From: Thermoleophilia bacterium
GTDB taxonomy: Bacteria; Actinomycetota; Thermoleophilia; Solirubrobacterales; 70-9
Reading direction: 5' to 3'
Length of the DNA: 64,000 nucleotides
Assembly: GCA_016650125.1 (NCBI GenBank)
Contig: JAENWT010000014.1
Coordinates: forward strand, 1 to 64,000
The position numbers were made by a program, and so were the translations under genes. Positions 4,481 to 8,116 of this stretch are shown here, in pieces. Position 1 is the stretch's first letter, and each line of letters opens with the position of its first letter. Below the pieces are notes generated by a model that saw nothing but the letters and a program-made list of their open reading frames with translations, was not told the DNA's origin and did no database searches.

Positions 4481-4525
4481 GCTTTACACGCAGGGGGTCA
4501 CTGGTTCGAGCCCAGTACCGCCCAT
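4481..4525 (+). repeat. tRNA-Val 3'-half attachment site, copy 2
   Basis: These 45 bases are identical to 2131-2175, but the upstream half of the tRNA is missing (ACTG replaces ACCT just before it), so this is not a tRNA gene. It marks the junction between two tandem insertions. The 160 bases before it, from 4321, contain no recognisable gene. The minus-strand stop of the next gene is only six bases after it. Confidence 0.9.
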
Positions 4526-4530
4526 TGAGG

Positions 4531-5394
4531 TCAAGCTCCGGCGTCGAACAGGATTGCGTCGGTTCCCAACTGCACATCTATCGATCGGGTGCCACCAAAG
4601 CACCTGATCATCACCGAGGTACTAGGCAGCGCTCCCGGACGGCGCTTCACATCGGCCCAACTTGGCCAAAAGCCATTTCGTTCTCGAAAGGCTCGGCAAG
4701 CCTTCGCGGCTTCCAGGGGACTCCACGATCTCCGCTGCCCAGTCGAAGTTTCAGAGACCATGCCGGCGGCGAGGATGGCGTCGGCAAAACGGTCGAAGTA
4801 CCTGTAGACAGTGGAGATGCTGGGCAATCGGTTGAGCGCCCTGCATTCATCCGACTTCGGGGGTCGGCCGAAGTCGTCCCGGAAACGCTGTATCGCTCCG
4901 ATGATCTGCGTTCGGTTCCACTGCTCCCCGATTCGCGGTGGCCACAGGAACTTCGCGTCCGGCTCGCCATCGTGAGAGGGGGAAACGCAGGGTCGAGCTC
5001 CCTCGAATGGAACGTCGCCGGCGCGTTCGGCCAACGCCTCGAGCGAAGCCGTCCTCCCTCTAGTTGCCCTGACGTCGTTCACGCCGTAACGCGCGGTGGC
5101 GATGAACAGACCCATCCAGCTGCCGGGTTTCTCCTTGAGCAGTCTAGGCCGTTTCGTCAGGAAACTGACGAGAGTGTCCTGGATTGCATCTTCGGCGTCG
5201 GCCAAATCACAGCGTTGCTGCCGGGCGATTCGCAGCGCAACGCGACGGAGGGTCTTGTGGTCGAAGTCTGCGAAAGCAGCTGAGATCTCCCCGTCCACCG
5301 GAGATGGCTCGGGCCGGCTCACCGAATAGCCAACCCTGGCATCGAACTCAGGTCCGTCAATCTTGGCGATCGCCTCTGCGAACGTGGAGGCCAT
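4531..5394 (-). CDS. Sigma-70 region-2-like protein with two homing-endonuclease-associated (HNH-repeat) modules
   Basis: The product has 287 residues. Residues ~47-117 match ECF sigma region 2: an ADAEDAIQDT core helix, then GSWMGLFIATARYGVNDVRA, and a basic stretch with SLEALAE. No sigma region 4 is present. Instead, residues ~158-212 and ~222-270 each match the homing-endonuclease-associated repeat. The pattern is a helix with F-R-x-x-x-G-x-x-P, then LPS at the start of a second helix, then an aromatic/FG-type turn. Such repeats are DNA-binding units beside HNH nucleases, but no HNH motif is present here. The start overlaps the stop of the upstream gene (TGATG), so translation is coupled. 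The inferred role is an atypical transcription factor of the element. Confidence 0.7.
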   Translation of the reverse strand: MASTFAEAIAKIDGPEFDARVGYSVSRPEPSPVDGEISAAFADFDHKTLRRVALRIARQQRCDLADAEDAIQDTLVSFLTKRPRLLKEKPGSWMGLFIATARYGVNDVRATRGRTASLEALAERAGDVPFEGARPCVSPSHDGEPDAKFLWPPRIGEQWNRTQIIGAIQRFRDDFGRPPKSDECRALNRLPSISTVYRYFDRFADAILAAGMVSETSTGQRRSWSPLEAAKACRAFRERNGFWPSWADVKRRPGALPSTSVMIRCFGGTRSIDVQLGTDAILFDAGA

Positions 5395-6089
5395 CAGGCG
5401 GCCTGCTGAGCCACGTAGACGGCTCGTCCGTCGCGTCTTGCCATTCGGATCTCTTCTTCACGAATCAACGCGCCGCATTCCCTCTGCACCACTTCGCGAG
5501 GCGTTCGGACGGCCTGGGCGAGTTCGTCCACCGAAGCCGATCCCCGGTCCTGAATGGTGGCCAGCAGGCGTCCCTGCATGGTTCCCTGATCGCCCGTCTT
5601 CGGTGACGGGCGGAGCGCGGATGCCTTGGACTCGTGGGGCTTTGCGGAGTAGCGCGTGGCTGTTCCGGTCCCGGTGCGAATGACCAGTCCATCTGCGACG
5701 AGTCGCTTCAACGCACTCCTGGTCGAGAAATCGGAGATATTGAGAGAGCGACGGATCTCCTGGAATCCCATCGGTTTGCCCTGTTCAACGAGATAGCGGT
5801 GGACCGCTTGCCGACGTTTCTCTGCTAGGGCGGCCGGGCTTTGGCCAGCCTTTTTCGGGCTCCGCTTCTGTCTTGTCCGTTGAGCTTTCGGCTGCGCGTC
5901 CTGCGGGTCGGGCGAGAGTGCTGCTGCGGCTCGATCCAATTCGCAAAGTCTCCGGTCCTTTTGGTTCTCGACGCCTTTGATCAGGCGAGTCGCCCAGGCC
6001 TCGACCTTTCGTTGCTCGGCCTCGATGGCTTTGCGTACGGCCGACTCGGTGTCGGGGAGGGCGACTTCGAGTGGACTCTTATCGGACAT
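5394..6089 (-). CDS. Tandem winged-helix DNA-binding protein
   Basis: The product has 231 residues. Residues ~12-58 are charged and predicted coiled coil (KAIEAEQRKVEAWATRL...). A very basic linker follows (~residues 70-85). Residues ~88-150 read as a winged helix (VHRYLVEQGKPMGFQEIRRSL, recognition helix SDFSTRSALKRLVADGLV, wing TGTGTATRY). Residues ~168-229 form a second one (MQGRLLATIQDRGSASVDELA, then TPREVVQRECGALIREEEI). No enzyme motif is seen. It is the first gene of a two-gene operon with the sigma-like protein and overlaps it by two bases. It is divergent from the AbiE pair across a 283-base gap. It may control its own operon. Confidence 0.65.
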   Translation of the reverse strand: MSDKSPLEVALPDTESAVRKAIEAEQRKVEAWATRLIKGVENQKDRRLCELDRAAAALSPDPQDAQPKAQRTRQKRSPKKAGQSPAALAEKRRQAVHRYLVEQGKPMGFQEIRRSLNISDFSTRSALKRLVADGLVIRTGTGTATRYSAKPHESKASALRPSPKTGDQGTMQGRLLATIQDRGSASVDELAQAVRTPREVVQRECGALIREEEIRMARRDGRAVYVAQQAA

Positions 6090-6372
6090 CTGACTTCTCC
6101 TCGATGGGTAGTTGTCACGTCGTAGTGTTCCCGGCCTACGGAAACTGCATTCGTGAGTAGTGCGACAACGCTACATCGAGGTATTCCGCTCGTGGTCTGG
6201 TTTCAAGGTGCTATTCAAACTTCTTCGTGTAACCTCGGCGATCATTTGCACCGCCGGCACCGAGCATCGCTCGGAGCCTCTGGACGCTGGCAGCGCAATA
6301 GTGGCCGGGCCAGGGTTTGATTATCTGTAAAAATTACATTTTGTCAGGTATTTAGGTGATAAACTCCCCTAT
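6090..6372. promoter_or_regulatory. Divergent intergenic region upstream of the AbiE pair and the winged-helix operon
   Basis: This 283-base gap separates two outward-facing operons and must hold both promoters. The right end (about 6316-6372) is AT-rich against a GC-rich background. It contains TTGTCA at 6341 and AGGTGA at 6354 ahead of the AbiEi ATG. No convincing -35/-10 pair or perfect operator palindrome could be fixed by eye. AbiEi antitoxins of known systems repress their own promoter through repeats in this position, but that is inference here. Confidence 0.4.
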
Positions 6373-6975
6373 ATGTCTGACGTAGATCATGATGGCCTGT
6401 ACCGCCTGGCAGAATCGCAGGCCGGTTACTTCACGGCGCAGCAAGCCATTGACGCCGGCATGGACCGAAGCACACTTCGCCACCACGCTCGTCCCGGAGG
6501 TCGCTACGAACGGGTTCGCAGGGGGCTGTTTCGCCTGCGCCACTTTCCCTCCAGTGCCCATGAGCATGTGATGGCCGTATGGCTCCCACTCCGCGATGCC
6601 GGCGCGGTGGTTTCGCACGAGAGCGCCCTGGAGCTTTACGGCCTCTCTGACGTGATTCCCGACGCGGTTCATCTGTCGCTGGCGCGCTCCGAGCGAGGTC
6701 AGCGGCGTCGCGACGGAGTACAGCTCCACTTCCCAGCCCAGCCTCCATCCGGAGATGAGGTGCGACCGGTCTCGGGGCTGCCGGTCACCAGTCCGGAGCG
6801 CACGATCATCGATGCGCTCAAGGCTGGAGCCCAGCCCGAGCAGGTCGAGATGGCCGTCCGCCAGGCACTGGAGCGAGGGATGACGACCCCTCGGCGGCTG
6901 CGAAAGGCTGCGTCGTCCGGTCCGAGACGGATCGACGGGTTCCTCGAGGAGGTTCTCGAGGGGGCGCCCAAATGA
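6373..6975 (+). CDS. AbiEi-family antitoxin / transcriptional repressor
   Basis: The product has 200 residues. The N-terminal ~65 residues form a winged helix of the AbiEi type (LYRLAESQAGYFTAQQAIDAG, then STLRHHARPGGRYERVRRGLFRL). The C-terminal part has the family landmarks VVSHESALELYGLSDVIPDAVHLS and GLPVTSPERTIIDAL. In type IV AbiE systems this protein neutralises the nucleotidyltransferase toxin without direct binding and represses the operon. The stop overlaps the next start (ATGA), the usual arrangement of the pair. Start ATG 6373 has AGGTGA twelve to nineteen bases upstream. The position between two tRNA-derived attachment repeats marks it as island cargo. Confidence 0.85.
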   Translation: MSDVDHDGLYRLAESQAGYFTAQQAIDAGMDRSTLRHHARPGGRYERVRRGLFRLRHFPSSAHEHVMAVWLPLRDAGAVVSHESALELYGLSDVIPDAVHLSLARSERGQRRRDGVQLHFPAQPPSGDEVRPVSGLPVTSPERTIIDALKAGAQPEQVEMAVRQALERGMTTPRRLRKAASSGPRRIDGFLEEVLEGAPK

Positions 6976-7880
6976 GATACCAGGACGCAGCGTCGTTTCG
7001 CCAGGCTCTCGAGCAACGTCTCAAAGACGAGGCCGCAGGCGACGGTGCCCGACTGGCCCGCATGCGCAAACGCGTCGCCTTCGATCGTCTACTTGTCCGC
7101 CTGGCGGCGGTCGCCCCCGGCCAATGGCTGTTGAAAGGCGGTTTCGCGCTCGACCTGCGCCTGTCCGCGAGAGCGAGGAGCACCAAGGACATCGACATCG
7201 AGTGGCGATCCAACGAGGAGGGACTACTCGACGTGCTCCTTGACGCGGCGAGCCACGACGCGGGCGACTTCTTCGTGCTGACGATCGAGGTTACGGGTGC
7301 GCCTGATGATCGCCTGGGCGGCAGCCATCGATTCCGGGTCACCTCGTCTCTGGCAGGACGCCCGTTCGAGACGTTCTTCCTCGATGTCGGCTACCGGGAC
7401 GATCAGACGACAGACTTGGAGATCCTGCTTACGGACGATGTTCTGTCCTTCGCGGAGATCGATCCCGTCGAGGTCGAGGCTGTTGTAGTCGAGCTGCAGG
7501 TTGCCGAGAAACTACACGCCTTGACACGTACCTATGAAGGTGGACGCGCCAGCACGCGGACCAAGGATCTGGTCGACATCGTCCTGATATCGACTCTCGC
7601 CCACCTGGACGCCGAGACACTGAGACGGGAGATCGATGCTGTGTTCGCGTCGCGCGACACGCATCCGCCCCCGTACGCATTGCCTCTGCCGCCACCAGAT
7701 TGGAATGAGCCGTTTCGACGGCTGGCCCAGGAAGTGGGGATCCCCGAAAAGCTTTCGCGAGGACATCGGGATGCCGCTGCGATGTTGGATCTCATCCTGG
7801 CTGGCGAGATCACCGCAGGAACCTGGGATCCTGTGGAGCAACGCTGGACCAAGAAGCCAGCTCAAGGAAGGAAGATCTGA
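6972..7880 (+). CDS. AbiEii/AbiGii-family nucleotidyltransferase toxin
   Basis: The product has 302 residues. Residues ~45-75 carry the nucleotidyltransferase signature (WLLKGGFALDLR followed by TKDIDIEW), which supplies the glycine turn and paired aspartates of the DNA polymerase beta-like fold. Further landmarks are LLTDDVLSFAEIDP, VAEKLHALTRTYEGG and TKDLVDIVLI. Family members act as abortive-infection toxins that transfer nucleotides to cellular targets; tRNA has been shown for some relatives. The target here is unknown. The ATG overlaps the antitoxin stop by four bases, so the two form one operon. The length matches the family, and no truncation is seen. Confidence 0.85.
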   Translation: MRYQDAASFRQALEQRLKDEAAGDGARLARMRKRVAFDRLLVRLAAVAPGQWLLKGGFALDLRLSARARSTKDIDIEWRSNEEGLLDVLLDAASHDAGDFFVLTIEVTGAPDDRLGGSHRFRVTSSLAGRPFETFFLDVGYRDDQTTDLEILLTDDVLSFAEIDPVEVEAVVVELQVAEKLHALTRTYEGGRASTRTKDLVDIVLISTLAHLDAETLRREIDAVFASRDTHPPPYALPLPPPDWNEPFRRLAQEVGIPEKLSRGHRDAAAMLDLILAGEITAGTWDPVEQRWTKKPAQGRKI

Positions 7881-8072
7881 CGCACGGGCTCGGTGCTGTA
7901 GGGGATGGTTCAGACCCGAGTGGTCATTTGAGGCAATTAGGACCAGTAGTCCCAGTAAACCAGTCAAATCGCCGCATATCCGAACCGATCGACCGATTTG
8001 GAATCTCGCAGAATTCCCAGAAAGCTCTGCATATGGGGTATTTCTGCGGCAACCCTTCGGTTGAGTCAGATC

Positions 8073-8116
8073 GCTTTACACGCAGGGGGTCACTGGTTCA
8101 GCCCAGTACCGCCCAT
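8073..8116 (+). repeat. tRNA-Val 3'-half attachment site, copy 3 (one-base deletion)
   Basis: These 44 bases match 2131-2175 except that one base is missing in the T loop (GGTTCAGCCC instead of GGTTCGAGCCC). No 5' tRNA half is present. This is the outermost boundary of the stacked insertions, and its decay is consistent with being the oldest. The flanks 7881-8072 and 8117-8273 contain no recognisable gene and no recombinase. Confidence 0.88.

Follow-up and report, generated by a model that had tools for sequence, protein, structure and literature searches.

How might a protein that joins part of a sigma factor to DNA-binding repeats, and that is encoded with a winged-helix partner in a mobile element, act in its host? 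The question is raised by two genes of a soil bacterium, a Thermoleophilia bacterium (GTDB: Bacteria; Actinomycetota; Thermoleophilia; Solirubrobacterales; 70-9). The window, i.e., the whole stretch of DNA that was analysed, comprises 64,000 nt (assembly GCA_016650125.1, contig JAENWT010000014.1, positions 1 to 64,000, forward strand). On its minus strand, positions 4531-5394 encode a sigma2-HNH-repeat protein of 287 aa, labelled P0001, and positions 5394-6089 encode its partner protein of 231 aa, labelled P0002; these coordinates are exactly those of the initial annotation. Relatives were sought in a comparison set of 232 genomes of the order.

The initial annotation had proposed a profile search for both domains of P0001. 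With Pfam, HNH_repeat (PF18780) matches residues 161-212 at 7.8e-8 and 33 bits, above its cut-off of 26 bits, and Sigma70_r2 matches residues 49-93 at 6e-5 and 23.2 bits, just below its cut-off of 24 bits. Eleven NCBIfam sigma models align to the protein over the region-2 part only (best 1.5e-4). The AlphaFold model is poor (pLDDT 54), and the Foldseek list is dominated by sigma factors at a level that is not significant (E ~0.7). VIA-align places residues 34-119 (5038-5295, minus strand) on sigma region 2: of the 50 structural neighbours listed, at least 43 are chains of sigma factors, with alignments that nearly all span ~34-119, and the ECF factor sigma H of M. tuberculosis is among the best matches (Z 6.2), a Z of ~6 being modest for helical bundles. 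A PDB sequence search with query A1 gave no match. The Pfam match and the structural matches together bear out the ECF-like sigma region 2 that had been seen at residues ~47-117.

Region 2.2 of this domain reads DAEDAIQD (residues 66-73). In known sigma factors, the D-x-x-Q-D/E motif of this region contacts the beta' clamp. The equivalent D and Q are kept in three of the four sigma2-HNH-repeat proteins described below; in the protein of genome G034, residue 72 is H instead of Q. The helices of region 2 through 2.4 and an ECF-like SLEAL segment are retained, even in the distant protein of genome G040.

No match to region 4 was found in P0001 with Pfam or NCBIfam, and HNH repeats stand in its place; the same two collections gave no match to a nuclease domain, HNH or other. 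The first repeat (residues 161-212; 4759-4914, minus strand) reaches 45.8 bits with a local HMM for which 24 repeats were taken from other HNH-repeat proteins, that of G040 among them, and its model (155-211) aligns with the HTH of a TetR-family regulator at Z 5.4. Pfam reports this one repeat and misses the second (residues 231-268; 4591-4704, minus strand), which the local HMM scores at 24.0 bits. None of the ~950 scored shuffles of the C-terminal stretch attains the real score of repeat 2, and the result is the same for both homologues of P0001 (G034, G031). The two repeats, the missing region 4 and the missing HNH nuclease, all claimed at the outset, are thus upheld, the second repeat by the local HMM.

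Full-length homologues of P0001 were found by protein search of the 232 genomes in G034 (60%) and G031 (~35-36%) only. A profile that included the G040 protein retrieved exactly four sigma2-HNH-repeat proteins in the order; the next matches cover the HNH repeats alone or the sigma part alone. In the G040 protein, both domains exceed the Pfam cut-offs (Sigma70_r2 7e-7, HNH_repeat 1.5e-14); hence, the fusion is real and not the accident of a single gene. Among the members of the pair family, Pfam matched HNH_repeat in three of three and Sigma70_r2 in two of three. Two further matches (L136/L137, from G103 and G092) were rejected as relatives, as they resemble ordinary ECF factors with region 4. 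Phage and plasmid collections yielded no relative of P0001, and no relative of P0002 was found among plasmids; in viral contigs, query A1 found no relative and query A3 had one match, over HNH repeats only. In the literature accessible without subscription, no work on the HNH repeat or on its fusion to sigma2 came up.

The partner is present at full length in 3 of the 232 genomes, always adjoining the sigma2 gene, and a class-wide draw added only weak winged-helix matches. The survey of co-occurrence that had been suggested therefore gives four fusions, three of which keep the overlapping partner gene. The AlphaFold model of P0002 is good enough (pLDDT 77) to recognise a long helix, the coiled coil, at residues 14-58 (5916-6050), and two MarR/TrmB-like winged helices at residues 85-149 (5643-5837; also by Pfam search) and 171-227 (5409-5579; structure model), all on the minus strand. 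This agrees with the architecture initially described, as does the gene arrangement with the proposed translational coupling: the P0002 stop overlaps the P0001 start by one base (TGATG) in the window and in both relatives, G034 and G031. No anti-sigma or response-regulator domain is present. Tentatively, and with a chance somewhat short of even, we read the two proteins as a two-subunit promoter-specificity factor that serves as regulatory core in a family of integrative defence elements found at tRNA genes.

Caution on the mechanism is needed chiefly because region 2 is the least conserved part of P0001 between the window and G034 (39 of 86 residues identical, 45%), the opposite of usual sigma factors. 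This would be unusual for a contact with the highly conserved RNA polymerase. The HNH repeats are identical at 36 of 55 (65%) and, for repeat 2, at 43 of 51 positions (84%) in the same comparison; between the window and G031 they are diverged (27/55 and 23/51, about 47%). A fast-changing sigma2 domain, which in one member has lost the region 2.2 glutamine, could be that of an RNA-polymerase binder and not of a true initiation factor: sigma2 would tether RNA polymerase, compete with the host sigma or bind an anti-sigma, and the repeats and the partner would regulate the element as a conventional activator or repressor. The sigma-like domain of PhyR binds an anti-sigma. PhyR is a precedent for a sigma-like domain that is present but not used as a sigma factor (PMC8103513). 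The retention of the helices through 2.4 and of the SLEAL segment, also in G040, and the absence of an anti-sigma or response-regulator domain make this explanation rather doubtful. With the HNH repeats as the most conserved part, P0001 might also regulate the element purely by sequence-specific binding to DNA, as an excision or copy-control repressor, its sigma2-like bundle serving only as a dimerisation or spacer domain. The modest structural Z-scores would suit such a protein, and HNH repeats of the lineage occur in other mobile-element proteins, e.g., a serine recombinase; however, several members match sigma-family HMMs independently, one of them above cut-off, and sigma chains make up nearly all structural neighbours of residues 34-119, which renders it unlikely.

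The preferred reading, a promoter-specificity factor of two subunits, has to be seen in the context of the element. An intact tRNA-Val(TAC), the integration target, lies at 2102-2174, and copies of its 3' end (att) are found within it (2131-2175), at 4481-4525 (identical over 45 bp) and at 8073-8116 (one base deleted), all on the plus strand. These three copies delimit two att-bounded segments in tandem, and the pair sits in the second, which refines its initially proposed location in a tRNA-Val insertion. The segment of the pair, from att copy 2 on the left to att copy 3 on the right (4481-8116), is 3.6 kb long and has only four recognisable genes: the pair and, as cargo, the AbiEi antitoxin-type regulator (6373-6975, plus strand; PADLOC 1.2e-59, Pfam) and the AbiEii nucleotidyltransferase toxin (6972-7880, plus strand; PADLOC 3.5e-82, Pfam 7.3e-24). 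With the tRNA 3' end directly repeated at its two ends, the segment is bordered like a tRNA-targeted integrative element; an integrase of its own was not found, either as a match in the own-genome stretch or as a remnant detectable with the integrase of sister genome G001. The first att-bounded segment carries an FG-GAP protein, and an integrase is found in neither segment. An inverted repeat, TGTAAAAATTACA, at 6326-6338 just upstream of AbiEi is a candidate AbiEi operator. The P0001 gene stops at a distance of 6 bp from att copy 2; truncation of the sigma2 gene by integration was considered and rejected, the C-terminus being equal in length to that of the G034 homologue.

Sister genome G001 contains an AbiEi/AbiEii element that has a tyrosine integrase but not the pair, and its borders carry the same 44-bp core; in several other sister genomes, no second copy of the core was present within the stretch read. 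The G034 pair lies in an 11.2-kb element bordered by tRNA-His and a 44-bp repeat; this element also encodes SIR2, an Upx-like protein and an integrase. In G031, the contig that carries the pair is short; tRNA-Pro and a PDC-M21B protein are encoded on it, and a second att was not seen there. The lone sigma2 protein of G040 is encoded divergently from a tyrosine recombinase and an HTH_17 gene. As the three pair loci differ in tRNA gene (Val, His, Pro) and in defence cargo (AbiE, Upx with SIR2, PDC-M21B, by PADLOC), the pair is the constant component, and tRNA and cargo are variable.

Recognised or candidate defence genes are thus carried by three of three pair loci, and phages interfere with host sigma factors. 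The pair might on these grounds be part of a defence system, a sensor or trigger that switches on the adjacent toxin or abortive-infection cargo during phage attack. This is very improbable: the cargo is unrelated between elements, AbiE-type systems own a regulator (AbiEi), the AbiE element of G001 at the same tRNA does without the pair, and PADLOC gives no match for P0001 and only weak matches at the HTH level for P0002. AbiE as a dedicated target was rejected on the same observations of other cargo in relatives and of the G001 element. The initial annotation had suggested control of the element or of AbiE; the AbiE-specific half of this falls away, and control of the element gains support from the varied cargo and from upstream DNA conserved in two elements.

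The preferred reading, with the pair as regulatory core, is in keeping with this DNA. Upstream of the partner gene, a non-coding block of 79 bp (6168-6246, minus strand) is common to the window and to the G034 element (L019 8992-9070). The local alignment of the two scores 44, and the best of 500 shuffles reaches 26; the block is a candidate autoregulatory promoter/operator. The genes around the block differ between the two. It contains box A, GATCGCCGAGGTT (6231-6243, minus strand; conserved in L019 at 9055), and box B, the near-palindrome TACCTCGATGTA followed by nCGT (6172-6183), which is found once in the window and once in L019. In both elements, box A (GATCGCCGAnGTT...AAGAAG) and the near-palindrome (TACCTCGATGTAnCGT) are exactly 59 bases apart, and no further occurrence of either box was seen elsewhere in the window or L019. 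A sigma-type -10/-35 in the block was looked for by eye and by consensus scan, with nothing convincing. G031, whose HNH repeats are diverged, lacks the block, which would suit the block as a target of the HNH repeats or of the partner, although three pair loci are a small number. Because two elements of different content share the block, the transferable unit seems to be the regulatory DNA, the winged-helix partner and the sigma2-HNH-repeat protein together.

In comparison with ECF (group IV) sigma-70 factors, P0001 has region 2 (2.1-2.4), the region 2.2 motif and the segment after it, and may function like them; by domain content, it is not a complete ECF sigma factor, as two HNH repeats replace region 4, and its partner is a DNA-binding coiled-coil/winged-helix protein and not a recognisable anti-sigma. 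In SigO-RsoA, as here, region 2 is apart from region 4 and a second protein of the same operon may aid DNA recognition. However, an RsoA-type second subunit brings a true region 4, whereas P0001 has its own HNH repeats and P0002 is a winged-helix protein without a match to region 4; a division of regions 2 and 4 over two coupled proteins is therefore not found. A chain of the RNA-guided transcription complex 9n9q of the PDB, which we take to contain a dCas12f-associated sigma factor, is also among the best structural matches of P0001 (Z 6.0). There, a sigma factor is aimed by a module of nuclease ancestry, which is a functional analogy: the RNA guide is in a separate Cas protein, while in P0001 protein repeats are fused to region 2. 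Phage T4 gp55 is a minimal region-2-based sigma that needs a second protein; it lacks repeats for reading DNA, and gp33/gp45 are not readers of DNA sequence either. The likeness to gp55/gp33, the late transcription factors of T4 (PMC2988020, PMC7892883), is again one of function, and P0001 differs from gp55 by the HNH repeats that it carries.

Among HNH_repeat (PF18780) proteins, P0001, with two good-scoring repeats, stands apart by having no nuclease and by its fusion to sigma region 2, an architecture found in 4 of 232 genomes. In this lineage, the repeats occur mostly without nucleases: as stand-alone arrays (L056), as arrays with HTH (L034, L047) and, in L005, at the end of a serine recombinase. 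The 'homing-endonuclease' label is hence a poor guide to origin, and the initial proposal that the repeats derive from an endonuclease targeting module is weak. The HNH repeat is a general module, presumably for binding DNA, and the fusion to sigma2 is one of its uses. HNH-repeat matches elsewhere were considered as possible sigma2 fusions; except for G040, those examined were arrays, HTH fusions or enzymes without a sigma domain.

Several of these proteins deserve a description of their own. The serine recombinase (Recombinase + Zn_ribbon_recom) at L005:1468-3312 (G159) has two C-terminal HNH repeats. A family of ~300 aa in several species of one genus (L047, L081, L126, L128) combines an HTH with two HNH repeats; its HTH has a borderline score for sigma region 4 (24.0 vs 24.1 bits in L047), which makes it a mirror image of the sigma2 fusion. 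Within one family of the class, many genomes have a well conserved array of ~230 aa (L056, L057, L084), usually with one match per genome, and this array looks vertically inherited. More HNH-repeat loci lie within the same genome (L023:7391-9107 and L022); by eye, the C4 locus of this set is near a transposase, a KAP-type NTPase and an SMC-like ATPase, which suggests another island.

For the pair itself, we infer the following route by which DNA binding would lead to initiation. Sigma region 2 would attach to the host RNA polymerase at its beta' clamp helices, in the manner of ECF sigma factors, and upstream promoter DNA would be read by the HNH repeats, three-helix and HTH-like, in place of region 4. 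The partner, probably dimeric via its coiled coil, would bind the palindromic box and either help to recruit the sigma2 protein or hold it in check. The complex would activate its own operon from the 79-bp block and, on some trigger, other genes of the element as well. In this form, the pair would be a two-component sigma factor whose promoter recognition upstream of -10 has passed from region 4 to the HNH repeats and a tandem winged-helix partner, and a self-contained, cargo-independent switch of integrative defence elements; we consider this possible and put it forward with considerable reserve.

The domain composition, the loss of region 4, the coupling to the partner and the location in a tRNA-borne element recur in related elements and are supported. 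The pair may, to judge from its domains, represent an unusual way of choosing promoters, and the 79-bp block offers a concrete DNA target for testing this. If true, the -35-reading half of a sigma factor would be exchangeable for an unrelated DNA-binding repeat, which would provide a modular route to new promoter specificities, and mobile defence elements would keep a constant regulator while their cargo changes.
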